Source: an uncultured Verrucomicrobiales bacterium
GTDB taxonomy: Bacteria > Verrucomicrobiota > Verrucomicrobiia > Verrucomicrobiales > DEV007
Reading direction: 5' to 3'
Length of the DNA: 64,000 nt
NCBI GenBank assembly: GCA_937891465.1
Contig: CALAHF010000019.1
Span: forward strand, 1 to 64,000
Below are positions 758 to 62,339 of the stretch, in pieces. The notes under the pieces were generated by a model. The model had not been told where the DNA came from. It saw only the letters and a list, made by a program, of their open reading frames with translations, and ran no database searches. Numbering within the stretch: position 1 is the stretch's first letter; each line of letters begins with the position of its first letter. Made by a program: the position numbers and the translations under genes.

Positions 758-799
758 GATCCAGCGGGGTTGATTCATCGTTCGAACCCTCTTGATTCA
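758..799. repeat. 43-bp palindromic repeat, degenerate copy R1
   Basis: A worn copy of the palindromic unit between the phosphoesterase and ftsH. The left half begins GATCCAGCGGGGTTGATTC and the right half keeps CGAACCCTCTTGATTC. Loop orientation is GGGT then ACCCT (head to head). This is the most diverged of the intergenic copies that keep both halves. Confidence 0.6.
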
Positions 800-866
800 A
801 AAACCTGAAACTGGCCTGCCATCCCCGTTGCAACCGCGAGCCGTTGTGTTAGAATTGGAGGTTTTC

Positions 867-889
867 CTCGTCTCATTTTTTTGAGCGAG
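867..889 (+). other. Hairpin in the ftsH leader
   Basis: CTCG-T-CTCA (867-875) pairs with TGAGCGAG (882-889) around a T-rich loop, leaving one bulged T. It ends 19 nt before the ftsH start codon. The run of T lies in the loop and not after the stem, so it does not look like a normal terminator. A role in ftsH mRNA translation or stability is only a guess. Confidence 0.4.
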
Positions 890-908
890 ACACCCTCAAT
901 TTTTTATC

Positions 909-3023
909 ATGCAAGACAACAACGGTGACGACAACTCCGGCGGTTCCAACAAAGGAAACAACCGCGGCGGAGACGGGCAGAACGAAGGCGGCTTCAACTG
1001 GAAGGGCTTTATGCTTCTGGCCATCGCAATGGGCTTGCTGGGCCTCGTTTTTTTCAGTAAATCGATCGGGGACGGTTCGGATACGAAAACATGGCGTGAA
1101 TTCACGGAACTCGTTAATAACAAGCGCATCCACGTTGATTTGGATAACCCAAATCCAGAGCTTCGGCACACCTTGGAGCTCGAAGAACGCCCGAGTAAAG
1201 CTGAAGAGTGGGTCAAAGGTTGGTATATTCTTGATGAAAAAGATGTGGCGGCAAACAACGGCGAAAAATATAAGCGCTTCCAGACTTCAGTGAACCTCGC
1301 CTGGGCGAAAGAAGATTTGAAGGCATTGCTCACTGACGCTGAACCGCCACTTCAGATCACGAATCAGACGACTAAAACGGAAAGCATGGGAGCTGCAATG
1401 CTCGGCTTTTACCTGCCAATGCTGATTTTGGTCGTATTGCTCTATCTCCTTTTCCGCCACCAAATGCGCTCTGCAGGTCGCGGCGCAATGAGTTTTGGAA
1501 AATCCAAGGCCAAAATGATGGCGATGGAGAAAAACAAGATTACTTTCAAAGACGTCGCCGGCGTTGAAGAGGCGAAAGAAGAAGTTTGGGAGATCGTAGA
1601 ATTCCTGAAAGACCCGAAAAAATTCCAGCGTCTTGGTGGTCACATTCCGAAAGGTGTTTTGATGGTTGGTTCCCCGGGAACGGGTAAAACCTTGCTGGCT
1701 CGTGCGATTGCCGGTGAAGCGGATGTTCCGTTTTTCTCGATTAGCGGATCCGATTTCGTCGAAATGTTCGTCGGTGTCGGTGCTTCACGAGTTCGCGATA
1801 TGTTTGAGGAGGGTAAAAAGAACGCACCTTGTTTGATTTTCATCGATGAGATTGACGCGGTCGGTCGTCATCGTGGCCACGGAATGGGCGGCGGACACGA
1901 CGAGCGCGAGCAGACATTGAACGCATTGCTAGTTGAGATGGATGGATTTGAAGCTCAGGAAGGCGTCATCATCATCGCCGCGACGAACCGTCCCGACGTG
2001 CTTGACCCGGCATTGCTTCGCCCCGGTCGGTTTGATCGTCAGGTAACCGTGAATTTGCCAGACGTGAAAGGTCGCGAGCAAATTTTGGATGTTCACGCAA
2101 AGAAAGTAAAAATCGCTGACGGAGTCGATCTCGGCGTCATCGCTCGCGGAACTCCTGGATTTTCCGGTGCTGAATTGGCAAACCTCATCAACGAAGCCGC
2201 GCTCCTTTCAGCCCGCAGAGGTCTGAAAGCGATCACCTTGCCGGAGTTTGAAGAAGCTCGTGACAAAGTTCGTTGGGGTAAAGAGCGCCGCAGCTTGGCA
2301 ATTTCTGAAAAAGAGAAAGAAAACACGGCCTACCACGAGGCGGGCCACGCGATATTGCTCTGCCTGTTAGACAACACCGAGCCACTTCACAAAGTGACGA
2401 TTATCCCACGCGGACCGTCGCTCGGTTCGACGATGTGGCTCCCTGAAGAAGATAAATACACCAACCGCGTCAATGAGCTGCTCGACCAGCTAGTCGTTAT
2501 CATGGGTGGTCGCGTTGCTGAGGAAGTCGTTTTCGGTAACGTCACCAACGGTGCCAGCGGCGACATCAAACAAGCGACAAGCATCGCACGGAAGATGGTT
2601 TGCGAGTGGGGAATGAGCGAAGAGCTCGGCATGGTCGAATACGGCGACAGTCAGGAACATGTATTTCTCGCCCGCGACATGGGTAGCGGCGGAGGTCGCG
2701 GCTATTCTGAAGATACAGCTCAGAAGATTGATTCTGAAGTGAAACGGCTCATTGATACCGCTTATCAAACAGCGACCGAATTGATCAACGCAAACCGCGA
2801 CAAGCTAAATACGATCGCTGCAGGATTACTTGAATACGAGACTCTTGATCGCGTTCACATCGATCAAATCATGGAAGACGGCGAGATGAAAAATCCGCCA
2901 AGCGCTCCAACGCCACCGGACATTCCAGATGATTCATCAAAAACTGATGAGCCGCCTGCGGACGGTCGTGACAAAGACGAAGGGAAAGATTTCCCAAGCG
3001 ATTTGGCTCCTGCGGGCGCCTGA
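909..3023 (+). CDS. ftsH: ATP-dependent zinc metalloprotease FtsH
   Basis: Membrane-anchored hexameric AAA+ protease that degrades misfolded membrane proteins and selected regulators. The 704 residues show a Gly/Asn-rich N-terminus, a first membrane segment at about 33-50, a periplasmic region, a second segment at about 166-182, and then the AAA domain with Walker A GSPGTGKT at 254-261, Walker [11 protein letters not shown] and the second region of homology. The zinc protease site HEAGH is at 476-480, with the third-ligand region [10 protein letters not shown] downstream. The C-terminal ~50 residues are a Pro/Asp/Lys-rich tail. ATG at 909 is the first start giving the full N-terminus; there is no clear Shine-Dalgarno sequence. 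A strong terminator follows. Confidence 0.97.
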
Positions 3024-3044
3024 TTTTCAAAGTCAGAAATTTTG

Positions 3045-3077
3045 AAAAACACGGGTCGAAAGATCCGTGTTTTTTTG
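3045..3077 (+). terminator. Rho-independent terminator of ftsH
   Basis: AAAAACACGG pairs with CCGTGTTTTT around GTCGAAAGAT (whose GTC/GAT ends can extend the stem), followed by a run of T. It lies 21 nt after the ftsH stop codon. Confidence 0.85.
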
Positions 3078-3124
3078 TAGCCGCGCTTAAACCGTGATCC
3101 CGCTTTAAGATGATGGAAGTTTTC

Positions 3125-3167
3125 CGAACCAATAGGGTTGGTTCATTGAACATACCCTGTTGGATCG
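3125..3167. repeat. 43-bp palindromic repeat R2
   Basis: A near-ideal unit. The left half reads CGAACCAATAGGGTTGGTTC and the right half ends ACCCTGTTGGATCG. The whole 43 nt matches its own reverse complement at about four fifths of positions. It sits between the convergent ends of ftsH and xerD, after the ftsH terminator. The rest of this 222-bp gap shows nothing else. Confidence 0.9.
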
Positions 3168-3245
3168 TGGCGGAGAGCTCGCGGATATTTCCGCCCACGC
3201 CGGCGGCTTCGTTGGCGCCTGGAAAGTCGCCGCTCCTTGGAAATT

Positions 3246-4136
3246 CTATCCGCGCGGATGAAATTTTTTGTGAACGGCACGTAAATGTTTCTGGTCGACG
3301 TGCGTGTATATCTGCGTGGTCGAAATATCCGCGTGGCCGAGCAGTTCCTGAATCACTCGCAAGTCCGCTCCGTTCCCGAGCAAGTGCGTTGCAAACGAAT
3401 GCCGAAGCAGGTGCGGATAAACATTTCCATCCAGCCCTGCCATTTTTGCCCGTGTTTTTACGATCTGCCAAATGCGCGTCGTTGTGAGTTTGGTGCCACG
3501 GATTGAAATAAAGATCTCGCTGCTGGTTTTCGGTGACACGAGATTGGGACGCTCGTTATCGAGATAATATTCGATCGTTTCACGAGCCTTTTTGCCGACA
3601 GGAACAATCCGTGTTTTGTTGCCTTTTCCGGTCACGCGAATGACGCCTTCTTTCAAATGCAAATTCTCGAGACGTGCACCCGTCAGCTCCGAAACGCGGA
3701 GGCCGCTGGCGTAAAGCAGCTCAATGATCGCCAGATCGCGTTTCCCAAGCGGTTGGCCTGTATCGATCGAATCGATCAGCTTCATTACGTTGGGTTCGTT
3801 GAGCGTCTCGGGGAGGTATTTTTCCAAACGCGGGGAATCAACCTGATCGGCGATGTCTTTTGAAATGAGCCCTTTCGCCGCGAGGTGGCGGAAGAAAATC
3901 TTCGTCGCGATCAGCTCAATCCGGAGACTGGCGGCAGCGAGTCCCGCTTTTTTGCGTTCAGCGAGTTGATCGGTGATGTGTTCAAGCAGAACTTGTTTCC
4001 AGTCAGTAATTTCTCGATTTTCCGCAAGCCAATCCGCGAGGCGTTCAAGCGATCGGCGAACGGAAATTTGATAATTATCCGACAGCCCGCGTTCTGTTGC
4101 GAGGTAGCGGATAAAGCGTTCGATCGCCTGATTCAT
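3246..4136 (-). CDS. xerD: Tyrosine recombinase XerC/XerD
   Basis: Site-specific recombinase that resolves chromosome dimers at dif during division. The 296-residue length is typical of Xer proteins. The N-terminal SAM-like DNA-binding domain spans about 1-95 and the catalytic domain about 110-290. The full catalytic set is visible: R147 (ASGLRVSEL), K171 (TGKGNK), H242 and R245 (HLLRHSFATHLL), H268 (LLGHADI) and nucleophile Y277 (TTQIYTHV). It reads closer to XerD than XerC, but a single-recombinase system is possible. The start is ATG at 4136, 5 nt after the stop of an upstream small frame, so it is probably cotranscribed with the genes to its right. Confidence 0.93.
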   Translation of the reverse strand: MNQAIERFIRYLATERGLSDNYQISVRRSLERLADWLAENREITDWKQVLLEHITDQLAERKKAGLAAASLRIELIATKIFFRHLAAKGLISKDIADQVDSPRLEKYLPETLNEPNVMKLIDSIDTGQPLGKRDLAIIELLYASGLRVSELTGARLENLHLKEGVIRVTGKGNKTRIVPVGKKARETIEYYLDNERPNLVSPKTSSEIFISIRGTKLTTTRIWQIVKTRAKMAGLDGNVYPHLLRHSFATHLLGNGADLRVIQELLGHADISTTQIYTHVDQKHLRAVHKKFHPRG

Positions 4137-4141
4137 AATTT

Positions 4142-4279
4142 CTATTTCCAGATCGTAATCTGCGTGTCGAGCGGCGAATCTTCAATGCTGATGTAGCGCC
4201 CAAAATCATCGCGTTCGAAAAGCACTTCGATCAGCTTTGCGTCACCCGATTCCGGTGTAATTTTCAGTGATGCGATCAT
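4142..4279 (-). CDS. Small frame, possibly the 3' part of a frameshifted gene
   Basis: An open frame ends in TAG 5 nt before xerD and reads LKITPESGDAKLIEVLFERD and then further acidic, protein-like sequence. The only ATG in frame gives 45 residues (start at 4279). The frame stays open to 4360 without any ATG, GTG or TTG further upstream, overlapping the stop of the next gene (4344-4778) in the +1 frame. It therefore looks like the C-terminal part of something longer, joined by a +1 shift near CTC-TAA-G at 4343-4349, by a sequence error, or as a relic. I do not recognise the family. Confidence 0.4.
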   Translation of the reverse strand: MIASLKITPESGDAKLIEVLFERDDFGRYISIEDSPLDTQITIWK

Positions 4280-4343
4280 TTTGCTCAAGTCATCGTTGAA
4301 CGCGACGTGACGGACTTCCCCACGTTCCGCGCCGCCGATCCGC

Positions 4344-4778
4344 TTAGAGGATTTGCGCCTTCACTTTATCATCCTGTATTGGTTCATTTGCAGTTGCTGG
4401 ATCTTTCGCTGGAGGAGCTTCAACAACGGTTACCGGCGCTGGTTCGACGCTTGTTTCGACCTCAGCTTTTAGTTTTGCAACGGTCGTGGCTTCCTTCGGA
4501 GCATCGACGTCAGATTCCGGCGACGTTTCAGCTTCGGCCTTCTCATCTCCGTTTGAAGACAATGAACTGAAGCCTACCCCCAGTTTCTCGCCCAGAGTTG
4601 GCATCACCTTTACCAATCCCCACAGCAATCCAAAAACCACCAGAAGCGTTACCAATCCCTTGATCTGAATTTTCAGCTCAGCCTTTTGTTCCTCGGGAGT
4701 TTTTTTGGGTTCCGCAGGTTTCACTTCTGCGGGTTGCTCTGCGGGGGTGGGAATTTCGGTGGATTCGTCGTCTGCCAT
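4344..4778 (-). CDS. Hypothetical single-pass membrane protein
   Basis: 144 residues, family not recognised. The N-terminal ~38 residues are rich in Glu, Pro, Ala and Lys. One membrane segment (GLVTLLVVFGLLWGLVKVM) lies at about 41-59. The rest is a low-complexity Ala/Pro/Glu/Val tail, which predicts a short cytoplasmic start and an extended exported tail. It is the first gene of the leftward run toward xerD and is divergent from the gene at 4922. Its stop codon sits inside a +1 open frame that continues another ~65 codons, so the protein may be longer in relatives. Confidence 0.6.
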   Translation of the reverse strand: MADDESTEIPTPAEQPAEVKPAEPKKTPEEQKAELKIQIKGLVTLLVVFGLLWGLVKVMPTLGEKLGVGFSSLSSNGDEKAEAETSPESDVDAPKEATTVAKLKAEVETSVEPAPVTVVEAPPAKDPATANEPIQDDKVKAQIL

Positions 4779-4921
4779 TTCAAAAACAAATTACGACGGC
4801 ACGAAGCAGGTTTCCACTGCTTAATTTGGAAGGATAGCCTTCCCAACCCGAAGTATACACACGAACGCGTCAGGCCCGTCGCTTGACCAAATCCGTGGTC
4901 TCCGCTTCATAGAAGACGTTC

Positions 4922-7093: not shown

Positions 7094-7158
7094 TTCAGCC
7101 GGAATAGGCGATCCGAATTCACTGGAAAACCTCGGCCAGTGGGTCATATTTTTGCCCT

Positions 7159-7698: not shown

Positions 7699-7755
7699 TT
7701 AATCACGTATCGCTTGGGTCTTGTGCCGACGGCAAAATTCTTGTGAAATCGTCGG

Positions 7756-10020: not shown

Positions 10021-10077
10021 ATCGCTTTGCGGAAAGAAATCGTTCGGCTACGTTGAGTCGAAGCTGAATTCAAACGA

Positions 10078-10578: not shown

Positions 10579-10621
10579 CGAACCAACCCTATCGATTCGC
10601 CAAACCAACCCTGTTCATTCG
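10579..10621. repeat. 43-bp palindromic repeat R3
   Basis: A complete 43-bp unit with both loops reading ACCCT (CGAACCAACCCTATCGATTC, then AACCAACCCTGTTCATTCG). The two halves are thus in direct orientation with a ~22-nt period rather than head to head. It lies 25 nt upstream of the uxaE start codon. Confidence 0.9.
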
Positions 10622-16250: not shown

Positions 16251-16251
16251 T

Positions 16252-18621: not shown

Positions 18622-18664
18622 CGATCCAATAGGGTACGTTCATCGATCATACCCTATTTGATCG
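18622..18664. repeat. 43-bp palindromic repeat R4a
   Basis: First unit of a pair between the lipase-like gene and menB (both leftward). Head-to-head loops AGGGT and ACCCT, ends CGATCCAA and TTTGATCG. Separated from unit R4b by exactly 11 nt (AAACGGGTTTT). Confidence 0.9.
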
Positions 18665-18675
18665 AAACGGGTTTT

Positions 18676-18718
18676 CGAACCATAAGGGTTGATTCGCCGA
18701 TCATACCCTATTTGTTCG
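18676..18718. repeat. 43-bp palindromic repeat R4b
   Basis: Second unit of the pair, loops AGGGT and ACCCT, ending CCCTATTTGTTCG. The stop codon (TAG on the minus strand, 18708-18710) of the lipase-like gene lies inside this unit. Confidence 0.9.
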
Positions 18719-20375
18719 TGGAAATCGATTTAGGGGTCTCGACTTGAGAAAGGATTTCAGTGACATCTTCTGGAACGGGAACACCAATGTGAATGCTGAG
18801 GATTCGCTCCAGTTCTGCGATTCCAGCTTCGGATTGATGGACAGAATGTTTGGTGCGCGGAATGACAATTTGGGATTCGGCAGCATCCATTATAGCGCTG
18901 CTGTAGGGAACCACGCCGTCAGACCATTTTTTCTGAGGCTGATCAAATCCTCGTTCGATGGCAACGATCGAATGACAGATGACGTCTGGTTTCAGAGGCA
19001 TTGAATCCATCAGCAACAACATTGGAGAATCAGGCCGCAAACCATCGATGCTGGTCGGTGGATTGGCTGCGATTTCAAGTCCAAGCGGGGTCAGACTGGT
19101 CCGACCGATATTGACGAGTTCGGTGGATACATTGACAATTTGTTGCGGCAAATCAATCAGCTTCGAGATCAGCCCACTGAACGGATTGGTCGCAAAACCG
19201 CTACCACGATGGGGTGTGGCCATGAAAACGACGCGACTAATGCTTGGAACGGGCTCGAAATACATCATATCACGAAGCACCGTTTCGTTGGATTCACTGA
19301 GACCAAGTGTCTCAAGGGGCTGGGTAAAAATCTGATCCCAGTTTGAATTCCCACTGGTCTGAAGGAGCCCTTTTGCCAACAATCCACCCATGCTGTGACC
19401 GACGACGAGAAGATCGTCATCTGATCCTCCCTGTGCTGTGCGGAACTGGTGCATTGCGGCGATTTCTCTTCGCAACCGCATGGCGGAATACGGGATAGGC
19501 GCCCCTGTTGGGTAACCGTAGCTCCAGAATTCGAATCGCTCACGAAGGGCAGGGTTGGCGAGAATTTTATTGAGGGCTTCCTTCCATGTAGCGGGGCCGG
19601 ATTTAAGTCCGTGAACGAGAATACAGGGAATTTTTCCAGCATCAAACGGAGTCAGGCGAATGAGACCCAATTTGCCCTCAAACTTAGCGTAATGAAGCAT
19701 CGCAGGCAGGTGAAATAGCTGCTTGTCCCGGAGCGCAAACCCGGTTGCGAGCGGAATTGAGTAGTCTGTAGCTAATGCGGTGGGATGTCCGTTCACGCTG
19801 ATTTTTTGTCGCACAGCGGGATCATAGATCACAAGTTTTGCGCGATCAGGCTCGCCGTTGAATTCCAATATTGCGGTGGCCGGCTGCCAGAGTCCTTCTG
19901 GAGCAATGAATGGATCGCTTTCGGAAGCGGGGGTGCATAAAGCGAGCGAAGCCCCGACGCCGTCATCACTGACAATTCGATTGAGCCCCCGTTTGATCAA
20001 CGTCAAATCAGACACATACATGTGCTCGTGATTTCTCAGATCGAGATCGCCTTTCGTGCCAGGATCCAGATCAACGATCACCTTGTTTCGCAAACTGTTC
20101 AGTGTGATCGTTTTTTGGCCCGGCTTTGGCATGGATTTTCCGGCCAGCTTTACAACAACATCATCGACCGCCTGGTTGTAAGCTTTGATGTCTTCAGGAG
20201 TTGCGGTACCTGATTGGATTCGTTCCCAGACGATGCGGGTTTCTGCCAAATCAACCTGCTTCCCGGTGAACGCACCGATTTTTTGCTTCACCACAACGCG
20301 CTGAGAGCACGCGGGGAGCAAAAATAGAATCAAGACGGCCGTCAAGGGGAGGGCCAAAGGTTGGCGATTATTCAT
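18708..20375 (-). CDS. Lipoprotein with alpha/beta hydrolase (lipase/esterase) domain
   Basis: 555 residues if started at ATG 20375, which places the lipoprotein signal directly at the N-terminus (LTAVLILFLLPACS, lipidated Cys). An upstream ATG at 20405 would add ten residues and spoil the short n-region. The mature protein has an N-terminal unknown region and then a lipase domain: oxyanion strand IPCILVHGLKSGPATW and nucleophile elbow VVGHSMGG, with candidate His in RTKHSVHQS near the C-terminus. This resembles secreted triacylglycerol-lipase/PGAP1-like esterases. The final residues (TNK) and the stop codon are encoded by repeat R4b. Confidence 0.82.
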   Translation of the reverse strand: MNNRQPLALPLTAVLILFLLPACSQRVVVKQKIGAFTGKQVDLAETRIVWERIQSGTATPEDIKAYNQAVDDVVVKLAGKSMPKPGQKTITLNSLRNKVIVDLDPGTKGDLDLRNHEHMYVSDLTLIKRGLNRIVSDDGVGASLALCTPASESDPFIAPEGLWQPATAILEFNGEPDRAKLVIYDPAVRQKISVNGHPTALATDYSIPLATGFALRDKQLFHLPAMLHYAKFEGKLGLIRLTPFDAGKIPCILVHGLKSGPATWKEALNKILANPALRERFEFWSYGYPTGAPIPYSAMRLRREIAAMHQFRTAQGGSDDDLLVVGHSMGGLLAKGLLQTSGNSNWDQIFTQPLETLGLSESNETVLRDMMYFEPVPSISRVVFMATPHRGSGFATNPFSGLISKLIDLPQQIVNVSTELVNIGRTSLTPLGLEIAANPPTSIDGLRPDSPMLLLMDSMPLKPDVICHSIVAIERGFDQPQKKWSDGVVPYSSAIMDAAESQIVIPRTKHSVHQSEAGIAELERILSIHIGVPVPEDVTEILSQVETPKSISTNK

Positions 20376-20533
20376 CAAATGAGTTTCACGGTTGGAACCA
20401 AGCATGGGAAAGAAAAAAACATAGATTTGTTTTTGGCTGGAAAAATTATGAGATAACCGCTAAAGCTGAATTCTACGCAAAATTTGCAGTCACACTTTCA
20501 AAAGAAAATACCAACCCAGGCACGCTCCCTTTT

Positions 20534-24582: not shown

Positions 24583-25806
24583 ATGCGCTCACGAACCACC
24601 CCTATTGAATCATCGAACCAACCCTGTCTGTTCGAAAAGGCATTTCGAATCAATAAGGTCTGTTCGACGATCATTCCCTGTTTGATCGTGGCGCAGTTGG
24701 CCTTTGCTGCTGAGCCAAAATTTGAGCGTCAGGAAATCGATTCGGAAGTCGAAGTCGGCTATGGGCTCGCGATCGGAGACGTCGATGGCGACGGCAAACC
24801 GGATGTTCTTCTGGCAGATAAACGACACTTTTCCTGGTATCAAAATTCTGCCGATTGGGCTGAATTTATCATGGCGAAAAATCTCTCGCTGAGAGACAAC
24901 GTCTGTATTGCTGCGGAAGATATCAATGACGATGGAAAAGTTGAAGTAGCTGTCGGAGCGATGTGGAACCCGGGCGAAACGAGCGACAAATCAAAGTCCG
25001 GCGCGGTTTTTTATCTGGTCCGACCGGAAGATCCGACAAAGGCATGGACACCGATTCAACTCAATCATGATCCTACGGTTCACCGCATGCGTTGGGTAAA
25101 GGCGGACGACAATCAATTTCGGCTCGTTGTACTGCCGCTCCACGGGATCAATAACAAAAACGGTGAAGGCGAGAATGGCGTGAACGTTCGGGTGCATCAC
25201 GCGCCGCTGAATTTGTGGAATGATCCAACTGCATGGAAAGATTCAGTGATCGAGAAGTCGCTTCACAAAACGCACAATCTGGACGATCTCGATGGCGACG
25301 TTTTGATCGGCGGAGCAGAAGGCGTTGTAAGACGCGATGTTTTGAATCCGCGCGAATCCGATCTGCGCATTTTGACGCCGGAAAACTCCGGAACCGAAGG
25401 TGTCGGAGAAGTGCGAATTGGCAGTGGGTTCATCACTACTGTTGAGCCCCTACACGGCAATACCCTCGCCGTTTACGAGAAGTCCGATGATGCTGAAAAG
25501 TGGACACGGACCATTTTGACCGATCAACTCAATCAAGGACATGCGCTCGCCACGGGGGACCTATTGGGCTTGGGAACGGATCAGATTGTGGTCGGATGGC
25601 GCAATCCTGATGCAAATGAGAAAGTAGGCATTAAGATTTTCTATCGCGAAAAAGCCGGTGCGGAATGGAAAAGCTACATCCTCGATGACAACAAAATGGC
25701 GACCGAAGATCTGAAAATCGCTGATCTGAACGGCGACGGCAAACTGGACGTCATCGCAGCGGGGCGAAAGACCCAGAATTTGGTGATCTACTGGAATCGC
25801 CGTTGA
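24583..25806 (+). CDS. Exported FG-GAP/VCBS beta-propeller protein
   Basis: 407 residues with repeated calcium-binding FG-GAP blades: IGDVDGDGKPDVLLAD, AEDINDDGKVEVAVGA, LDDLDGDVLIGGAEG, ATGDLLGLGTDQIVVGW and IADLNGDGKLDVIAAG. Such propellers are extracellular binding or adhesion modules. The only plausible start is ATG 24583, 9 nt after the upstream stop. From there residues 1-36 are read through repeat units R5a and R5b, and most of the hydrophobic core of the predicted signal peptide (about 26-42, cleavage near AFA) is encoded by unit R5b. The n-region is unusually long (25 residues), also repeat-derived. Confidence 0.8.
   Translation: MRSRTTPIESSNQPCLFEKAFRINKVCSTIIPCLIVAQLAFAAEPKFERQEIDSEVEVGYGLAIGDVDGDGKPDVLLADKRHFSWYQNSADWAEFIMAKNLSLRDNVCIAAEDINDDGKVEVAVGAMWNPGETSDKSKSGAVFYLVRPEDPTKAWTPIQLNHDPTVHRMRWVKADDNQFRLVVLPLHGINNKNGEGENGVNVRVHHAPLNLWNDPTAWKDSVIEKSLHKTHNLDDLDGDVLIGGAEGVVRRDVLNPRESDLRILTPENSGTEGVGEVRIGSGFITTVEPLHGNTLAVYEKSDDAEKWTRTILTDQLNQGHALATGDLLGLGTDQIVVGWRNPDANEKVGIKIFYREKAGAEWKSYILDDNKMATEDLKIADLNGDGKLDVIAAGRKTQNLVIYWNRR
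24592..24634. repeat. 43-bp palindromic repeat R5a
   Basis: First unit of a pair. Both loops are in the CCCCT/ACCCT orientation (direct halves). It lies inside the 5' end of the FG-GAP gene. An 11-nt spacer (AAAAGGCATTT) separates it from R5b. Confidence 0.88.
24646..24688. repeat. 43-bp palindromic repeat R5b
   Basis: Second unit of the pair, head-to-head loops AAGGT and TCCCT. It encodes residues 22-36 of the FG-GAP protein, including most of its signal-peptide hydrophobic core. Confidence 0.88.
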
Positions 25807-28282: not shown

Positions 28283-28325
28283 CAATCCAACAGGGTCTGT
28301 TCGCTGAATCAATAGGGTTGGATCG
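28283..28325. repeat. 43-bp palindromic repeat R6
   Basis: A complete unit with both loops AGGGT (direct halves: CAATCCAACAGGGTCTGTTC, then GAATCAATAGGGTTGGATCG). It lies between two rightward genes, 38 nt before the next start codon. Confidence 0.9.
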
Positions 28326-32085: not shown

Positions 32086-33204
32086 TCAAACCAAGTGCAA
32101 AACTTCCTGAAACACCCCTCCCCCAACCAATACCTCGCCCTGATAAAAAGCGCAGATTTGGCCTGGTGTGAGAGCGCGTTGCGGTTCATCAAATCGAACC
32201 ACCAGGGTTGATTCGTCGGACTTACCTTTCTTTTTAATAGAGCTATCTTCCGGTTCGATCGAAATTGGCACGGCATCGCAGCGATAGCGTGGCTGAGCGC
32301 TCAGATTATCCATTGTAGCGAAATTTCCGTTTGTGAAGCTCAGGCTCCCTACCCGGCACTCGGTTGCGTATAGTTTGGGCGTTTCGGGTTCGTCGAACGC
32401 AACGACCAACGCATTGTCTGCAGGCCGTTTTTCGATGACGACGTAGGCTTTACCAAAGGTGTTCGAAGCTACGCCCAGTCCGCGTCGCTGTCCGAGAGTA
32501 TGCATGTGAAGCCCGCGGTGCGTGCCAACTTCGCGACCGTCCAACGTGACAATCGGGCCGGGTTTATCATCGATGTAATGGGCCAAAAAATCGGACATTT
32601 TAATATCGCCAATAAAACAAATCCCCTGACTGTCCTTCTTGGCCGCGACAGGAATTTTCATGCGCTCTGCCTCTTCGCGAACCTGCGGTTTGGCAATCCC
32701 GCCGATCGGAAACCAAGCAGGCTGGATTTGATGCTGCTCCAGAAGAGCAAGGAAATACGTCTGATCTTTATTCCCATCGACACCTTTCAAAATGTCGGAC
32801 GTCCCATTGTCATTCCGTCGAATCTGCGCGTAATGGCCTGTCGCAATATGCTCAAAGCCCTGCATTTTAGCGAATTCGAGGAAAATCCCGAACTTCATTT
32901 CGCGATTGCACATCACGTCAGGATTTGGTGTCACACCGTCGCGATAGCCCGCCAGCAGGTATTCGACAACGCGCTCGCGATACTCATTTTCGAGCGACAG
33001 CAGCCGGAATTCGATCCCCAGATGATCGCACACCGCACGGGCATCGATGATGTCTTGTTCCCACGGACAATCGCCGGGAAGCCCTTCCTCGTTCGTGAAA
33101 TTCCGCATGTAGGCGCCAACGACTTCATGCCCTTGCTCAATAAGTAAACCGGCCGCGACAGAGCTATCAACTCCGCCCGACATTGCTGCGAGAATTCTTG
33201 CCAT
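32086..33204 (-). CDS. mnmA: tRNA 2-thiouridine synthetase MnmA
   Basis: Makes s2U34 in tRNA-Lys, -Glu and -Gln. The 372-residue protein has the ATP-pyrophosphatase loop SGGVDSS at 9-15, catalytic Cys99 (NPDVMCNREMKF) and Cys196 (DSQGICFIGD), LGQRRGLGVA and a C-terminal beta-barrel with FDEPQRALTPGQ. In the barrel a segment of about ten extra residues (IKKKGKSDESTLVV region, about 323-337) interrupts the usual short loop compared with my recollection of the E. coli protein. That segment is encoded by a sequence matching one half of the 43-bp repeat closely and the other half loosely. Confidence 0.95.
   Translation of the reverse strand: MARILAAMSGGVDSSVAAGLLIEQGHEVVGAYMRNFTNEEGLPGDCPWEQDIIDARAVCDHLGIEFRLLSLENEYRERVVEYLLAGYRDGVTPNPDVMCNREMKFGIFLEFAKMQGFEHIATGHYAQIRRNDNGTSDILKGVDGNKDQTYFLALLEQHQIQPAWFPIGGIAKPQVREEAERMKIPVAAKKDSQGICFIGDIKMSDFLAHYIDDKPGPIVTLDGREVGTHRGLHMHTLGQRRGLGVASNTFGKAYVVIEKRPADNALVVAFDEPETPKLYATECRVGSLSFTNGNFATMDNLSAQPRYRCDAVPISIEPEDSSIKKKGKSDESTLVVRFDEPQRALTPGQICAFYQGEVLVGGGVFQEVLHLV
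32195..32237. repeat. Apparent in-frame repeat copy R11 inside mnmA
   Basis: CGAACCACCAGGGTTGATTCG matches the left half-unit, with arms CGAACCA and TGATTCG. The following 22 nt (TCGGACTTACC and then T-rich) match the right half only in part. It encodes residues 323-337 of MnmA in frame. Weaker evidence than the intergenic copies. Confidence 0.5.
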
Positions 33205-36930: not shown

Positions 36931-36973
36931 CGATCGAACAGGGTAGGTTCGGCGAACATATCCTGTCTGTTCG
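36931..36973. repeat. 43-bp palindromic repeat R7a
   Basis: First unit of a pair between the convergent ends of cysJ and the LysR pseudogene. Loops AGGGT and ATCCT (head to head). An 11-nt spacer (AAACGGCTCCG) separates it from R7b. Confidence 0.9.
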
Positions 36974-36984: not shown

Positions 36985-37028
36985 CGATCCAATAGGGGTA
37001 GGTTCGGTGAACCAACAGGGTTGGATCG
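36985..37028. repeat. 43-bp palindromic repeat R7b (44 nt)
   Basis: Second unit of the pair. Both loops are in the AGGGG/AGGGT orientation (direct halves), with one extra G making it 44 nt. Confidence 0.88.
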
Positions 37029-43100: not shown

Positions 43101-43155
43101 TGTCCAATTTTGCCACGCACTCTTGAACGTGAACGAATTTGTTTATTTGAATTGA
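40150..43155 (+). CDS. PSD1-type DUF1549/DUF1553 cytochrome protein
   Basis: 1001 residues with a signal peptide (about 1-16, [13 protein letters not shown]). Modules: an N-terminal jelly-roll-like part (about 20-255), a planctomycete cytochrome domain with CYSCH at 292-296 and [11 protein letters not shown]1549 ([13 protein letters not shown] to [14 protein letters not shown]) with a second CAQCH at 590-594, and DUF1553 from about 715 ([20 protein letters not shown]) to the end. These proteins typically precede a DUF1501 gene, as here (the next gene overlaps its stop). They are secreted and tied to polysaccharide catabolism in the PVC group; biochemistry unknown. Confidence 0.92.
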
Positions 43156-44561
43156 TGAATACCAACAACAATTTTAGATTATCGCGACGAGCCATGCTTC
43201 ATCAGAGCACGCTTGGCATGGGGTCCATCGCCCTGGCATCGATGATGTCAGATCAAAAATTGATAAGCGCTCCGATTGCTCACCGACCGGCCCGTGCAAA
43301 AAACATCATCTTTTTGTTCATGAGCGGGGGTCCCGGCCAAACCGATACGTTTGATCCGAAGCCGCTTTTACAAAAACTCGACGGCCAACCCGTGCCCGAA
43401 AGTATCGCTGTGAACGTCCCCAAAATCCCGCGTTCCGGCGTGAACTCGAAGCTGATGGCTTCACCTTTCAGTTTTACAAAATACGGACAGAGCGGCATCG
43501 AAGTTTCAGAACTTTTCCCCGAGACAGGAAAAATGGTCGACGACCTTTGCGTGATCCGCTCGATGAATCATCGCATTCCCGTGCACGGCCCGAGCGAGTG
43601 CATCGCGCTCACAGGGACTGCTGTTGGCGATCGTCCCAGCATGGGGGCCTGGATGACTTACGGCCTTGGCAATGCCAGCCAGAACCTCCCAGGCTTTGTC
43701 GTTTTTCTTTCCAACACCACCGGACCTGCTCCGCAACGCGCTGGCTGGGGACCTGGTTTTCTTCCAGCCCAATATCAGGGCACTGTGGTCGACAGCAAAA
43801 AAGGCGTGCCTTTCACCGCAATGCCATCGGGATACACCGACAAAAATCGCCGCGAACAACTCGATTACATCAAGTGGATGAATGAACGAAACCTTGCCCA
43901 ACATGGGGCTGATTTCGAACTCGAAGCCCGCATCGCATCCTACGAACTCGGCTTTCGCATGCAGGCTTCTGCACCCGAAGCATTCGATGTTTCCGGTGAA
44001 AATGAAACAACGCAAAAACTCTACGGCATGGATCAAAAACACACCGCAGAGTTTGGAAAACAGTGCCTCATGGCGCGGCGACTTGTCGAAAACGGCGTGC
44101 GTTGTATTCAACTTCGCAACGGCGGCTGGGATGCCCATGGCAGCTTGGAGGGCAATCACATCGCGCGTTCCCGAGCCACCGACAAACCAATCGCAGGGCT
44201 GCTTCAGGATTTGAAACAACGCGGACTTCTCGACGACACCCTAGTCGTTTGGGGCGGAGAATTTGGCAGGACGCCGACCACTGAAGGATCCGCAACCGGT
44301 GCCAAACGCGGCCGCGATCATTCTCCGGCAGGCTACTCAGTATGGATGGCTGGCGGAGGCGTCAAAGGCGGGCAAATCATCGGCGCGACTGACGACCTCG
44401 GTTACGTTCCGGTTGATCGTCCGTTTTCCCCGGCAGATTTACACGCCACCATGCTTGATGCGCTGGGGCTCGATCAACATCAACTCACTTACGATCACAA
44501 AAACCGCGCCGAAATTCCGACGGTTTTTGGAGGAGAAGTGATTCAGGAAGTGTTTTCGTAA
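43155..44561 (+). CDS. DUF1501-family Tat-exported protein
   Basis: 468 residues from the ATG that overlaps the previous stop codon (TGATG), preferred over an upstream in-frame start. The N-terminus has a twin-arginine signal ([20 protein letters not shown]), so the protein is exported folded. Family signatures: [52 protein letters not shown] and [23 protein letters not shown]1501 has an alkaline-phosphatase/sulfatase-like fold and is nearly always paired with a DUF1549/DUF1553 protein; the pair probably acts together. Confidence 0.93.
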
Positions 44562-49193: not shown

Positions 49194-49236
49194 CGAACCA
49201 ACAGAGCACGTTCGATGAACAGACCCTGTAGCTTTG
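49194..49236. repeat. 43-bp palindromic repeat R8
   Basis: A diverged unit (loops AGAGC and ACCCT, right end GTAGCTTTG) starting 6 nt after the stop of the ThuA protein gene. Confidence 0.75.
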
Positions 49237-49319: not shown

Positions 49320-51212
49320 ATGAAGCCATTCGTCCTCGCCACAATTCTGGTTCTACTCATTTCACCCACTCTTTTGGCGCAGGAAAAGTCGCAGCCTAAC
49401 ATCGTTTTCATTCTCGCTGACGATTTGGGTTGGGCGGACACGACGCTCTACGGCCATACCGATCTTTACAAAACACCGCACATCGAACGACTCGCCAAGC
49501 GAGGGATGACGTTCACGAATGCTTATTCAGCAAGCCCGCTTTGCTCTCCGACGCGATCCAGTATCCTCACTGGATTGCATCCCGCGCGAACCGGATTGAC
49601 TACGCCGAATTGTCATCTCCCACAGGTGGTTCTGCAGGCAAGTGCCCCTGCGACCGCAGTTCCCGGACAGAAATCAGTCCAACCAAATCCGGTCACGCGA
49701 CTCGATCCAAAATTCGAAACCATCGCCGAACGGCTCAAAGAAGAAGGCTATGCGACCGGCCATTTCGGAAAATGGCACCTCGGAAAAGAACCATACTCGC
49801 CACTCGAACATGGATTCGATGTCGACATTCCGCACTGGGCAGGCCCTGGGCCGGCCGGAAGTTTTGTTGCGCCTTGGAAATTTCCTGATTTCGATCCTGA
49901 CACCCCGAGTCAGCACATCGAGGACCGCATGGCTAAAGAAGCTGTTGAGTGGATGGCAGCCAACAAAGACAAGCCGTTTTTCCTAAACTATTGGATGTTC
50001 AGCGTGCACGCGCCGTTCGATGCAAAGAAGGAATTGATCGAAAAATACCGTCCGAAAATCGACCCCGCTGATCCACAGCGAAGCCCGACATATGCTGCCA
50101 TGATCGAGAGCATGGACGATGCCGTCGGCACGTTGCTAGACTCGCTCGACGAACTCAAAATCTCCGACAACACCGTGATCATCTTTTTTTCCGACAACGG
50201 TGGAAACATGTACAACGAAGTCGATGGAACCACCCCTACATCAAACGCTCCTCTTCGCGGAGGTAAAGCAAGCATGTATGAAGGCGGAGTCCGCGTCCCG
50301 ATGATCGTGAGCTGGCCTGGCAAAATCGCTCTTGGGTCTGAAAACGAAGTCTTGGTTCAAAGCTGCGATTTCTACCCAACGATTCTTTCAATGTTGGGTA
50401 AAAAGGCGAAGCCGGAACAGAAATTTGACGGCGTCGACATCACTCCGCTTTTCAAAAACGAAAGTATCGAGCGCGAGGCCATCTTCACGTATTTCCCTCA
50501 CAACCCACCGGTTCCGGATTGGGTCCCGCCATCAGTCTCCGTTCACAAAGACGACTGGAAATTGATCCGACTTTTCTTTCAGGGTGAAAATGGGGCACAT
50601 CGTTATTTGCTTTTTAATTTGGCGGATGACATCGGCGAAAAGAACAATTTGGCAGATGAAAACCCAGAGATGGTCAAAGAACTCGATGCCCTAATCGAAG
50701 GATTTCTGAACGAAACGAATGCGGTTCGACCGATCCCAAACCCGGCTTTTGATCCAGCCAAATACCGACCGGAAGACGAAGGCAAAAACCGCGTTCGCGA
50801 CCAGAAAAAACCCGCTCCGAAAAAAGCAAAGGACACCGTGGGAGGCTGGACGCCACGGGAATCAAAAGCTACGCTTAAAGACGGAATCATGACCGTCCGT
50901 GCCGCCGGAAAAAATCCGTTTCTTGGTATTGGAGCCGGAGTCAAAGGCCCCGCGACCGTAACATTCCGGATTCGCTCCAAAAACGGTGGGACCAGTAAAA
51001 TCGCCTGGGTTCCCGCTGACAAAAAGGAGCGCACCATTGCCTATGAAACGACGGGCGGCGATTGGGAGGAGATCGAATTAAAAATCCCGGCAGAGGGCAG
51101 TCTCGGAATTTTTCGGATTTATGTAGCTGCTCAAGGTCAGCCTGTGGAACTCGACTGGTTGGGGTTGAAGCCGGATAACGGCGACTCTCGGCGCTGGGAT
51201 TTCGCAAAGTGA
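49320..51212 (+). CDS. Exported type I sulfatase
   Basis: 630 residues with a signal peptide (about 1-20). Metal site DD at 34-35 ([11 protein letters not shown]). The formylglycine motif CSPTR is at 75-79 ([15 protein letters not shown]), so Cys75 is the residue converted by a formylglycine-generating enzyme; no such gene is in the window. [16 protein letters not shown] and the rest of the sulfatase fold follow to about 470. A C-terminal jelly-roll-like domain (about 510-625) is typical of planctomycete-type sulfatases. It removes sulfate from a glycan, most likely a marine or mucin-like polysaccharide; linkage specificity unknown. Confidence 0.93.
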
Positions 51213-51321: not shown

Positions 51322-51364
51322 CGATCCAACCCTATTGGTTCGTCGAACGTACCCTGTTCGATCG
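51322..51364. repeat. 43-bp palindromic repeat R9
   Basis: A complete unit with both loops ACCCT (direct halves, CGATCCAACCCTATTGGTTC at the left). It ends 21 nt before the start codon of the DUF1080-cytochrome gene. Confidence 0.9.
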
Positions 51365-54865: not shown

Positions 54866-54899
54866 CCAACGGGCTCTGATTCTTGATCAGTCCCGTTGG
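54866..54899 (+). other. Long hairpin upstream of the dehydratase gene
   Basis: CCAACGGG (54866-54873) pairs with CCCGTTGG (54892-54899); inside it CTGAT pairs with ATCAG around TCTTG. The hairpin ends 14 nt before the start codon at 54914. Its layout, with CCAA and TTGG arms 34 nt apart, is close to the repeat unit (35 nt), so it may be a diverged member of that family or an independent regulatory hairpin. Confidence 0.5.
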
Positions 54900-54913
54900 G
54901 TGGTCGACGTGTT

Positions 54914-59480: not shown

Positions 59481-61038
59481 CAGTTACGTAAACCGAATAG
59501 ATTTTCACATCGCCGGCATCAGGGAGTTCAACGCGAAGCGCGTAAGACTTCCCTGCGAGAATTGGATTTGCGAGCGACACTGCGACACGTGTTCCCGATT
59601 CCGTTACCTTCGCCACGGCCCCTTCGACCGGTTTCGCATTCTCATCTAGCAGCTGAACGGTGAGTGGCGCATCAGCCGAAACCCCCTCTACGTTAACGAT
59701 CACTTTGGCGGGTGCTGTCGATTTGAAATGCGCCGTTTCAAAATGTGCGGGTGAATCGGCGATCTTTCTCGAAGCAAATCCGAATCCATCGCGACGAAGT
59801 GTCGCCAGTCCGATTTCCATCGTTTTCAGCTTTCCACCGGTGTCCCAGTGCGAATACCACATCATCGTCTTATCTCCCTCGTTGACGAACGCGTGGCCTT
59901 GCAATAAAGCGATGTCATCCCACTCGCCGGGTTCGCCTCGCGTGATGACTTTGTGATCCGGGATCGGTTCGCGGAAGTGAATTCCATTGTTACTGACGAC
60001 CAAACCAAGATCGACCCGCACGCCTTTGTTCCAATATTTGCCGTCCTCCGGTTTCTTCGGCGCATCCTGCCAGAGCCCATTCAGCCCGACGATGACGTTG
60101 CCGCGATTCCACATTCCTGCGCCCATGTGACCTTGCTGACCTTTGACTGGCGTCGATGTGAGTTGCCCAACCCGGGCGAGGCCGAATGCCTTCGAATCCG
60201 ACCAGTTATCAAAATCTGATGATCGATATGTCATCGTTCCACGACCAACATCACTTCCATCCATTCGCCACATCCATGGTGAAATCAGTTGGCCGGGAGC
60301 GTAATAGAAATTTCCAAATTTATAGAGCGCCGAAACCTCGAAGCGCTCGTTGCCGGCATTCATTGGACGATCTCCAACGACTTTCCAACTCAACCCGTCA
60401 GCACTGGTTGCCGCGATGAAAGCACCCCAACGACGTTCGTCGGGTCCGACCTTGCTTCGTCCTCCCCGCACATCTTTGAATTCCGGATGTGCAATGTAAA
60501 CCGCTTTGTAGCGACGATTCGGATCGGGATCCTCTGGCTCATGGAGAATGCTGAGAAAGTCATTTACCTTAGCGAGCGACGGCACTTCGGATTTGATCAG
60601 GCAAATATTGTTCTTTTTGTTGCCTTTAAATTCGACCAGTCCGAGTTCTGGTTTCGTCCATGTGACTCCGTCATCACTCTCGGCATAACACATCGGCCGC
60701 CACCAACCGGGAGCTTGGCCCGCCTTGAGATCAGTCTCGAACATTCCGAGATACCACATCCGAAATTTGCCATCGAGCTTCAAGACGGTTCCGTAAAGAA
60801 TCGCATGGCCGTGATCCGGGGCGCCTTCGGGCCCACGTTTCAGCACGGGGTTCTTCGGATGTTTCTCCGCGCGTACCGGTGTCACAAATAAATTATTTCG
60901 CCAGGGAATCGCACGATCATCGAACGAAAAGAAAACGGCTTCATCAGTTTCGGGGCCACCGTCGACGGATACTCCAGCCTTTGCTGATGGGAAAAATGGA
61001 ATCGCCGACAGACAGATTGTGTAGAAGAGTTTTTTCAT
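59473..61038 (-). CDS. Exported glycoside-hydrolase-like beta-propeller (GH32/43/68-like)
   Basis: 521 residues with a signal peptide (about 1-21, ICLSAIPFFPSAKA). The body resembles five-bladed propeller glycosidases: NPVLKRGPEGAPDHGHAILY at the start, RMWYLGMFETD, YAESDDGVTWTKPELGL, and later LLQGHAFVNEGDKTMMWYSH. A C-terminal beta-sandwich of about 100 residues (PAKVIVNVEGVSADAPL and onward) looks like a carbohydrate-binding or FN3-like module. I cannot assign a GH family with confidence. It is part of the leftward cluster with the sialidase-like and fusion genes. Confidence 0.75.
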   Translation of the reverse strand: MKKLFYTICLSAIPFFPSAKAGVSVDGGPETDEAVFFSFDDRAIPWRNNLFVTPVRAEKHPKNPVLKRGPEGAPDHGHAILYGTVLKLDGKFRMWYLGMFETDLKAGQAPGWWRPMCYAESDDGVTWTKPELGLVEFKGNKKNNICLIKSEVPSLAKVNDFLSILHEPEDPDPNRRYKAVYIAHPEFKDVRGGRSKVGPDERRWGAFIAATSADGLSWKVVGDRPMNAGNERFEVSALYKFGNFYYAPGQLISPWMWRMDGSDVGRGTMTYRSSDFDNWSDSKAFGLARVGQLTSTPVKGQQGHMGAGMWNRGNVIVGLNGLWQDAPKKPEDGKYWNKGVRVDLGLVVSNNGIHFREPIPDHKVITRGEPGEWDDIALLQGHAFVNEGDKTMMWYSHWDTGGKLKTMEIGLATLRRDGFGFASRKIADSPAHFETAHFKSTAPAKVIVNVEGVSADAPLTVQLLDENAKPVEGAVAKVTESGTRVAVSLANPILAGKSYALRVELPDAGDVKIYSVYVTDE

Positions 61039-61059
61039 GAAAAATTCAGGGCAGTTTTC

Positions 61060-62268
61060 TTACGCTTCAGGAAGTTTCCATCGAGCCTGACGCAAGACAG
61101 CCAGCTTCGAATCTTTCATTTTTTCATACCAAACGGTCAACAACGTTCCGTCATCCAGCTCAACTGTGCTCGGATACCCCAGATCACCTCCGGCCCCGTC
61201 ACCCGAGATAATCATTGGTTCGCCCCACGTTTTTCCATTATCCAAACTCACTCGTGCCTGATTGCCAAACGGAGTACGACGATGGCCGTAGGTCATGAGC
61301 AGACGGTCATCTTTGAGCTTCATCAAATGCGACGGCAGTCCAAAGGTGATCGGTCGTGGCGTGCTCCACGTTTTTCCGCCATCGGACGATTCCGTTTGCA
61401 GGGTCCAACCGGAATTCTCTTTGTTATGATTCCGAATCTGCACAACGATCGTTCCATCAGCCGCTTCGACACCATGTAATTCATGATAACTCTTTGTCGG
61501 ATCATCCCCCTCACGAGTCGGGATATCTGAAACCCACTGCCACGTTTTCCCATCATCTTTCGATTCACAGACACCGATTTTTTTATCATCGGTCCAGAGC
61601 TGCTTGCCAGGATAAAGCAACCGGCCGTCCTTCAATTGTATCGGACCGTGAGGGCTGTTCGCAATTGTTGGAATCCGCTCGCCCCACGTTTTTCCGCCGT
61701 CCTCGGAACGAATCAACCATACCCCGAGTTCCGCTTTTCGCTCTTCGTCAGTGAGCCGATCATGACACGCCATCCAACGTCGCAATTCCTCATCACCAAA
61801 GTCTTTGGTCTGCCAACCGTCTTGCCCGAGCCCGCTCATCTGCTTGCCCTTTTTCATATACGACTCGTAGGCCAACGATGTGAACGTTGTTGCAATCAAA
61901 GTCCCCTTATCCGTTTCAAGAAAGCCAGAATCCCGATCATCAATCGCTCCATCCAAAAGGACGCGCGGCCACGTCCATGTTTTGCCGTCGTCCTTCGACG
62001 TCATCGAAACGATTTGTCCAAAAGGGCAAACGTGCGCGAGCCGTCCTCCCGACCAACTCACCCAGAGTTCACCATTTTTCCGGCGAGCTAACGTCGGCCA
62101 TCCGCAATAATATTCCGGTCGTTGGGAAATGATTTTCGTTTCGAGAATAGTCGCACCCCCGGTTTCTTGAGCCACAAGAGGCGTTGCGGCCATCGCGCCG
62201 ATCGAGGCGGCTCCGGCTGTTTTCAGGAACTGACGTCGGGCGGTGGGATTCGTTGATTCTGGATTCAT
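61060..62268 (-). CDS. Tat-exported BNR-repeat sialidase-like protein
   Basis: 402 residues beginning with a twin-arginine signal (TARRQFLKTAGAASIGAMAA). At least five Asp-box (BNR) motifs mark a six-bladed sialidase propeller: SKDDGKTWTWP, SEDGGKTWGE, SKDDGKTWQW, SSDGGKTWSTP and SLDNGKTWGEP. An arginine in RRTPFGNQARVSL is a candidate active-site residue. It is similar to exo-alpha-sialidase-like proteins common in Verrucomicrobiota, many of which act on other sugars. Upstream neighbour of the GH-like gene (21-nt gap), so probably one operon; repeat R10 lies 28 nt before its start. Confidence 0.85.
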   Translation of the reverse strand: MNPESTNPTARRQFLKTAGAASIGAMAATPLVAQETGGATILETKIISQRPEYYCGWPTLARRKNGELWVSWSGGRLAHVCPFGQIVSMTSKDDGKTWTWPRVLLDGAIDDRDSGFLETDKGTLIATTFTSLAYESYMKKGKQMSGLGQDGWQTKDFGDEELRRWMACHDRLTDEERKAELGVWLIRSEDGGKTWGERIPTIANSPHGPIQLKDGRLLYPGKQLWTDDKKIGVCESKDDGKTWQWVSDIPTREGDDPTKSYHELHGVEAADGTIVVQIRNHNKENSGWTLQTESSDGGKTWSTPRPITFGLPSHLMKLKDDRLLMTYGHRRTPFGNQARVSLDNGKTWGEPMIISGDGAGGDLGYPSTVELDDGTLLTVWYEKMKDSKLAVLRQARWKLPEA

Positions 62269-62296
62269 ATCGTAAATTAATTGTCAGGAGTGTTTT

Positions 62297-62339
62297 CGAA
62301 GTAGCAGGGTTGCTTCATCGAACAGACCCTGTTGCTTCG
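62297..62339. repeat. 43-bp palindromic repeat R10
   Basis: A complete head-to-head unit (loops AGGGT and ACCCT) with altered arm bases: CGAAGTAGCAGGGTTGCTTC at the left and CCCTGTTGCTTCG at the right. The changes on both arms compensate, so pairing is kept. It lies between two leftward genes. Confidence 0.9.

Follow-up and report, generated by a model that had tools for sequence, protein, structure and literature searches.

Copies in the 64-kb window

The stretch analysed here, which we call the window, comprises 64,000 nucleotides from an uncultured Verrucomicrobiales bacterium (GenBank assembly GCA_937891465.1, contig CALAHF010000019.1, positions 1 to 64,000) and carries dispersed copies of a palindromic repeat of about 43 bp. 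An initial annotation, made from the letters alone, had listed 13 of them. All 13 are present, twelve being clear (43 bp, with one of 44) and the first degenerate and starting at 757, not 758, and their outer arms, inner arms and loops are as that annotation described. To this can be added that each half is a unit in its own right, with the loop AGGG or CCCT, and that one further copy, missing from the earlier list, lies at 32195. The copies are given below without assignment to a strand (ORF, open reading frame; plus and minus signs in brackets give the orders of halves).

757..799, degenerate 43-bp unit, 57 nt past the stop of a plus-strand ORF; 31.2 bits
3125..3167, 43-bp unit in the space between two convergent genes, with loop AGGG followed by CCCT; 67.3 bits with the covariance model
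10579..10621, 43-bp unit, both loops CCCT, 12 nt past a stop codon
18622..18664, first unit of a double (+-+- over 18622-18718), upstream of a minus-strand gene of the enoyl-CoA hydratase family
18676..18718, second unit of the 18622 double, at +54 bp; gives a TAG stop to the minus-strand ORF 18708-20405
24592..24634, first unit of a double (--+-), 18 nt past a stop codon
24646..24688, second unit of the 24592 double, at exactly +54 bp
28283..28325, 43-bp unit, both loops AGGG, 13 nt past the stop of a PSD/DUF1592-type gene
32195..32237, the additional copy, made up of a good half and a degenerate one; next to it comes a degenerate beginning of the composite type B described below
36931..36973, first unit of a double, 20 nt past the stop of a flavodoxin/NAD-binding reductase gene
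36985..37028, second unit of the 36931 double, both loops AGGG, the first of them with one additional G, hence 44 bp
49194..49236, 43-bp unit, 6 nt past a stop codon and ahead of a sulfatase gene
51322..51364, 43-bp unit, both loops CCCT, 109 nt past a sulfatase stop
62297..62339, 43-bp unit, loops AGGG then CCCT, 8 nt past the stop of the minus-strand ORF 62348-63982

The gene calls beside most of these copies are backed by Pfam, which matched 16 of the 19 window proteins scanned. The 3125 copy lies between genes for an FtsH-type protease (ending at 3023) and a tyrosine recombinase (minus strand, ending at 3246); the recombinase gene (3246-4136; Phage_integrase, E 4e-46) is 78 bp from the copy, an adjacency that looks accidental. 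The reductase gene before the 36931 copy forms a convergent pair with one that encodes a LysR-type substrate-binding domain.

Both loops point in the same direction in the copies at 10579, 24592, 28283, 36985 and 51322, and the three close pairs of units are each exactly 54 bp apart. With a weight matrix, the ungapped copies score 31 to 61 bits, compared with a best score of 2.2 in 20 shuffled windows. The gapped 36985 copy is not amenable to scoring by this matrix (-34.2 at 36985 and 12.8 at 36986) and receives 52.8 bits from a covariance model that was built from 12 window copies, itself among them.

The 21-bp dyad and its spacing

The repeating unit is the 21-bp half, itself a dyad, and not the 43-bp palindrome. 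In the source genome (G000), the consensus of this dyad is CGAWnnAAyAGGGTnnGTTCR, and a 43-bp unit is made of two dyads, mostly in inverted order; the consensus in genus g12, CGATSARACAGGGTYTSATCG, is related to it. The arms read CGAAC in genus g1 and CGATC in g12, and the core ACAGGGT is constant.

Counts come from 1.26 Mb of stretches fetched from G000, whose genome is 5.97 Mb, and from 0.50 and 0.40 Mb, respectively, of a sister species (G001) and of a genome from the sister genus g12 (G012). The pieces of G001 were picked partly for carrying matches, and array density in that species is not used. An early sub-sample of 464 kb of G000 yielded 87 full units by weight matrix, and the matrix, which is symmetrised, was built from these 87 units, window copies included. 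Since it allows no gaps, halves with an internal insertion or deletion are lost from the counts, never scored as wrongly spaced. An array is defined as two or more halves, single halves being dropped from most counts, and spacings were measured between independently found halves up to 120 bp apart. Halves were accepted in two modes, score-selected and neighbour-accepted, which are biased in opposite directions.

The G000 sample holds 177 arrays, or 140 per Mb, which extrapolates to about 840 in the whole genome; in the 464-kb sub-sample there are 69 arrays to 401 ORF calls, about one per six genes. A covariance-model search of G000 gave at least 159 matches (best E 3e-13), with 150 of 5,313 first-look candidates scored.

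The phasing of the dyads is near-exact. For instance, among 252 spacings in G000, 206 are of 22 bp and 38 of 32 bp, the other eight being 23, 42, 42, 43, 54, 55, 66 and 110 bp; in G001, 123 are of 22 bp, two of 32, one of 33 and one of 34, and in G012 all 48 are of 22 bp. Thus, a constant helical spacing of 22 or 32 bp holds for 244 of 252, 125 of 127 and 48 of 48 spacings, respectively, although the copies differ from each other by a third. Inverted doublets are preferred in G000 (+- 127, ++ 43, -- 33 and -+ 3, of 206) and in G001 (111, 7, 5 and 0, of 123), but not in G012, where the orders are about equal (15 for +- against 12, 11 and 10 for the rest, of 48). A third half at 22 bp occurs in 9 of 45 G012 arrays, single halves included, and 27 of the 177 G000 arrays are full doubles with the second unit at exactly 54 bp. 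We considered tandem duplication as the origin of these doubles and rejected it, as the first and second units are hardly more alike than random ones (identity 0.697 against 0.669, 27 doubles); the fixed 54-bp distance is therefore not the trace of a recent duplication.

Conservation within the dyad is strongly uneven. In 458 halves of G000, the mismatch is 0.02-0.07 at positions 2, 3, 8, 10-14, 19 and 20, and 0.30-0.57 at positions 4, 5, 6, 9, 15, 16 and 21; in 93 halves of G012, conservation reaches 97-99% at positions 2, 3, 8, 9, 11-14 and 20. The pattern is roughly mirrored across the half, with a rank correlation of the arms of just 0.53 (p 0.12).

Compensatory change in the palindromes

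The initial annotation had proposed that paired changes on both arms reflect selection for pairing. Such changes do occur in the copy that it named, at 62297 (G5-C39), but they are not a property of the family: there is no excess of compensated pairs in either the short or the long hairpins (90 to 458 halves, three genomes). The cleaner measure of pairing is the number of pairs altered on both sides and yet still paired. Among neighbour-accepted halves, this number was 88 against 88.8 expected in G000 (361 halves, z -0.09), 54 against 46.9 in G001 (240 halves, z 1.21) and 50 against 49.3 in G012 (103 halves, z 0.13). Score-selected halves gave, in the same order of genomes, 94 against 117.4, 41 against 47.1 and 29 against 38.2 (z -2.9, -1.1 and -2.1), and the long hairpin gave 95 against 110.9, 52 against 75.3 and 9 against 10.7 (z -2.1, -3.8 and -0.7). 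As a positive control, 59 repetitive extragenic palindromic (REP) sequences from 350 kb of E. coli K-12, run through the identical script, gave 34 compensated pairs against 14.0 expected (z 9.5).

Total Watson-Crick pairing, compared with column shuffles, is in the 464-kb sub-sample 1018 against 1022.8 expected for the short hairpin (z -0.5), 1012 against 1019.5 for the long one (z -0.7) and 366 against 390.1 at the junction (z -3.3; the G012 junction has z -3.1). For score-selected halves in the three genomes, the totals have z -3.9, -1.8 and -2.0 (-3.5 to -3.9 in two runs for G000), and for the long hairpin -2.8, -5.0 and -1.8; these negative values are probably caused in part by the selection of halves on score. 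Neighbour-accepted halves give +0.7, +2.8 and +2.8, and here admixed non-elements push the totals upward. Mismatches of the G.T and A.C types on the sense strand (52 against 96 in G000, 14 against 10 in G012) were not used because they are confounded by column composition.

Covariation is thus absent from the full alignment, the outcome that had been named beforehand as speaking against selection for pairing. Because compensated pairs are at or below chance here while E. coli REPs are strongly positive, the palindromic form belongs to the motif itself, as it does where a dimeric protein binds, and is not a fold that compensatory changes maintain; the arms vary independently of each other. The missing covariation alone does not prove protein binding, as a decaying mobile palindrome would show none either, but both the spacing and the unequal conservation of positions (mismatch from 2% to 57%) argue against simple decay.

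Position relative to genes

Arrays are mostly extragenic, with just 16 of 177 in G000 lying within ORF calls. These, together with 7 of 121 in G001 and 8 of 39 in G012, were excluded from the position counts, as were arrays lacking a neighbour gene on both sides. The genes were called with a purpose-made dicodon caller, not taken from curated annotation, and some divergent directions are possibly wrong. Of the 159 G000 arrays that remain, tandem gene pairs enclose 96, convergent pairs 34 and divergent pairs 29; the intergenic regions of at least 50 bp number 381, 91 and 173, respectively.

Within the tandem pairs, arrays prefer the space immediately behind the stop codon. In G000, 39 of 96 begin 6-15 nt past the upstream stop, compared with about 14 of 89 under random placement; arrays of G001 cluster at 0-10 nt (24 of 58, with about 14 expected) and those of G012 at 11-15 nt (6 of 19 against 1.5 expected). 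A separate count of arrays behind stop codons had 28 of 55 at 6-15 nt in G000, against 16.5% for random placement, and 10 of 32 in G012, against 10.7%. Some arrays give the stop codon itself, as in three G000 cases with a TAG at positions 9-11. Seven convergent gene ends in G001 lie 7 nt within an array, which fits a predicted TGA at array positions 5-7.

A location close behind stop codons and common to convergent genes is what one would expect of a bidirectional transcription terminator, or of an element that stabilises the 3′ end of mRNA, acting as an RNA hairpin. The outer flanks in G001, A-rich before (AAAA) and T-rich after the array (TTTT), agree with such a role, with at least five T in the eight outward bases at 45 of 214 ends against a background of 5%; therefore, a terminator role is possible for G001, where T-rich ends in gene direction number 8 of 53. 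In the other two genomes, however, the flanks run opposite to the terminator direction (TTTT before and AAAA after in G000, TTTC and GAAA in G012): outward T-rich ends, at 24 of 354 in G000 (background 6.4%) and 0 of 78 in G012, are not above background, and outward A-rich ends number 54 of 354 and 5 of 78. Intrinsic terminators with a T tract are about equally common at gene ends with and without an array, at 7 of 43 and 21 of 150, respectively, in G000 and at 2 of 15 and 18 of 132 in G012. Furthermore, nine arrays leave merely 16-28 nt to the next start codon, and covariation is absent from the hairpin arms. On balance, we regard a terminator or RNA-stabilising element as distinctly improbable for the family. 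A comparison of the window with the Rfam families gave no match at gathering score.

Distribution among genomes

The repeat is not confined to the few copies in the window but forms a genome-wide family that is present in relatives as well. Our first model matched 10 of 57 genomes at E 0.01, the source genome included, with more than three matches only in genera g1 and g12. A model of the g12-form sequence matched 23 of 386 genomes of the order at 1e-4, all of them belonging to three genera of a single family, g1, g12 and g2; the ACAGGGT core persists in the g2 copies, including those on a contig piece whose G+C content is 0.69. In a sample of 387 genomes of the phylum, which did not contain G001 and G012, the first model matched only the source genome at 1e-6. 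Scanning named genomes (84,980 species, the source genome possibly excepted) for the exact pattern returned 19 stretches, all in two Verrucomicrobiales metagenome-assembled genomes, JABDJT (SS_bin_30) and JAEUHH (MAG-12), which are very probably relatives already compared and not extra carriers. No plasmid matched the g1 or g12 form, and the only phage match for the g1 form, a 35-base Bacillus phage stretch in two records (E 0.02), is taken as chance. A literature search, whose coverage did not extend to subscription papers and figures, returned no description of this repeat family. This is a real, large and probably undescribed repeat family of one Verrucomicrobiales family.

One contig of a g2 genome (G070:C14, L161-L163) carries g12-type arrays every 5-13 kb, which could indicate either a horizontally acquired island or a mis-binned contig.

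Turnover and mobility

Arrays turn over rapidly between species. G000 and G001 were compared at 77 gene pairs, all reciprocal best hits that leave room behind the gene: an array is present in both genomes for 11, in G000 only for 11, in G001 only for 19 and in neither for 36 (5, 2, 7 and 30 in an earlier, smaller ortholog set); such pairs are often distant, with a median identity of 58% over 107 pairs. Where sites are shared at an identity of at least 40%, seven of nine differ in the orientation or number of halves. The 24592-24688 double of the window keeps its order (--+-) and spacing at the matching place in G001.

This turnover would also be expected of a relic family of miniature transposons that is decaying without function, in which the apparent binding site is the recognition site of a lost transposase. 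In agreement with such an origin, there is weak linkage between columns (mean mutual information 0.059 against 0.044 in shuffles), some pairs of copies are more alike than shuffles permit (41 of 43 bases), and composite copies with inserts exist. Nevertheless, we found no target-site duplication at any offset tried (323 arrays, three genomes). Nor do the genes flanked by arrays on both sides point to a transposase: of 14 such genes, three are homologous members of a large sulfatase-type family and the other 11 have no mutual similarity. The sulfatase at window position 49320 has 40 homologues in the sample, and we take the flanking of sulfatases for chance; no transposase-like gene is recurrently flanked in the sampled parts of the three genomes. 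Neutral decay at such divergence should also yield more insertions and deletions than observed, and adjacent positions differ strongly in conservation. A functionless relic thus seems an unlikely explanation for the arrays. Miniature inverted-repeat transposable elements (MITEs) in general share with the arrays an inverted-repeat architecture, many copies and no coding capacity; the arrays differ in lacking target-site duplications, and no parent transposon turned up in the sampled parts.

Comparison with REP elements and other arrays

The initial annotation likened the repeats to REP sequences and bacterial interspersed mosaic elements (BIMEs) without their head sequences, and the likeness holds: the family is dispersed, palindromic and mostly extragenic, and no GTAG or CGTC head was found, the column composition of units and flanks showing neither tetranucleotide at either end. 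A stronger version of this comparison would make the arrays REP-type elements proper, in which a Y1 transposase of the REP-associated (RAYT) type copies a palindrome that acts as a hairpin, either single-strand or RNA, and the 43-bp unit is an inverted REP doublet (a REPIN). Like the REP, REPIN and BIME elements of the GTAG and CGTC super-families, for example in E. coli, the arrays are short, mostly extragenic palindromes present in hundreds of copies per genome, often as inverted pairs (127 of 206 of the 20-bp palindrome pairs in G000 and 111 of 123 in G001) and near stop codons. E. coli REPs lie 1-20 nt from ORF ends and affect translation below 16 nt, according to an excerpt of PMC12306157. 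There is also a precedent in the same phylum, as an excerpt of PMC3733652 describes REP dimers (GTAG-17/GTAG-19) in the verrucomicrobium O. terrae in which two palindromes lie merely 1-2 bp apart, and REPs that can supply a stop codon. Those dimers consist of GTAG-tagged stem-loops, and it is this description, not a sequence comparison, that sets them apart from the arrays.

Three points count against the copying of a REP-type hairpin. The GTAG/CGTC head is missing, and compensated pairs show no excess, whereas compensatory changes are called common in REPINs in an excerpt of PMC3116915 and E. coli REPs are strongly positive in our own control. In addition, the RAYT-type partner suggested initially finds no support, as the Y1 transposase does not track the repeat across 58 genomes of the family. 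Y1_Tnp matches occur in 41 of the 58, and in the genomes without the repeat they number 0 to 36 (36 in G004, none in genera g15 and g17); among the carriers, G000 has one match with an internal stop, G001 has one weak match and G012 has 17. The arrays differ from REP, REPIN and BIME elements in having no head tag and no compensatory changes and in their near-exact 22/32-bp phasing, and no RAYT partner was found in the most copy-rich genus. The family is REP-like from outside but fails two defining tests, the head tag and compensatory change, and the transposase does not accompany it; we therefore consider it doubtful that the arrays are REP-type elements.

Iteron-type arrays are in-phase protein sites of about 22 bp at replication origins. 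The arrays described here resemble them as in-phase 22-bp arrays of what are predicted to be protein sites, but iterons mark a single origin, while the arrays occupy about 840 dispersed places and each of their sites is a dyad.

Proposed phased sites for a dimeric protein

The reading that we tentatively favour, at slightly less than an even chance, is that the arrays are phased double-strand binding sites for a dimeric protein at gene ends and have been spread by copying. A homodimeric DNA-binding protein would read the 21-bp dyad from both arms, through the GA...AC and GT...TC steps and the three-base centre, with sites stacked two helical turns (22 bp) or three (32 bp) apart. Such stacking would place bound dimers on one helix face, where they could contact one another. 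The arrays may have spread genome-wide by copying and survived best in the small space behind stop codons; covered with protein, they would probably mark gene ends, whether as a boundary, a polymerase roadblock or a nucleoid anchor. The halves pointing either way in G012 are as expected of a site read by a dimer. The dyad consensus, the independence of the arms, the near-exact phasing, the preferred location past stop codons and the turnover between species are what the data show directly; the protein, its dimeric state, its cooperativity and any influence on transcription or on how the chromosome is structured are what we infer.

Several observations weigh against binding by a dimeric protein. 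Divergent gene pairs flank 29 of the 159 G000 arrays outside ORF calls, the distance from the stop varies by species (the G001 peak being at 0-10 nt), and the outward T-rich flanks of G001 are as a terminator would have them. The gapless matrix hides insertions and deletions, and at least five places among the covariance-model matches, window 36985 included, are longer or shorter than 53. In G000 and G001 the halves show a strong preference for the +- order, so orientation is not free there. Arrays shared at orthologous gene ends are little above chance, and single copies are not strongly kept. By our estimate, the 45 bits held by a 43-bp unit are about three times what marking 840 places needs, so common descent by copying would explain part of the conservation. 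Finally, no cognate protein has been identified for the dyad.

A more far-reaching version, which we think possible but clearly less likely than not to hold, is a gene-end marking system in which several hundred dispersed phased operator arrays and a dedicated dimeric protein act as a genome-wide boundary or roadblock, the protein having co-evolved with its site between genera. A protein that binds the arrays, if there is one, would organise hundreds of gene ends in a sequence-specific manner; our literature search returned no such gene-end organiser for the phylum. Palindromic dispersed repeats are usually taken as hairpins, and the large family described here fails a hairpin test that has a positive control, while its spacing is almost exact to the base pair. 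Applied to other REP-like families, the covariation test could tell those that are hairpin elements from those that are double-strand sites.

Composite forms and other palindromes

Some copies form part of longer composites. In type A, a conserved segment interrupts the centre of a half (CGAACCAAYAG, about 100 nt, YAGGGTTGG...), and the insert begins near ACCGGCGATACCGCC and ends CCCTGACGCGATTTGG. Seven clear cases were chosen by eye among 40 loose matches in G000:

C97:13294, C165:35205, C165:76710, C162:35441, C164:37495 and C80:75685, composite type A
C19:75652, composite type A, on the window contig beyond the window

Type A is either an older long form or a sign that insertions favour the centre of the dyad. 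In type B, the sequence after a unit runs from TATYAGGGCTATCTTCCGG through about 60 nt to GCCAGCTTGTCGCCCTGTTGGTTCG; by eye, its inner stem has compensatory changes, unlike the arrays. Its occurrences are as follows:

C97:112525, C165:80479, C17:50036, C18:99816, C20:8775, C164:70482 and C105:23574, composite type B in G000
C11:6051, composite type B in G001
32238 onward in the window, degenerate composite type B

Rfam returned only matches far below gathering score for both composite modules.

Other palindromes occur in G000 as well. A large two-armed palindrome, CATGGACCGCGACGATCCCTCGTCGC ... GCGACGAGGGATCATCGCGGTCCATG, lies in an intergenic region at C97:46430-46640 (L036), where the ortholog region is 52 bp long; it is another insertion family. 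The sole Y1 transposase match of G000 (L001 1321-2100, G000:C171), which has the internal stop, adjoins a different palindromic repeat, by eye of the CCTCCGGCTAATGGCT type; the flanking of the Y1 gene by repeat copies was judged by eye, in G000 only.

A multi-copy protein family in the window also gives matches in the sister species: the stretch 44175-44277, within ORF 43110-44561, matches about 10 places in G001 at 74-82% DNA identity.

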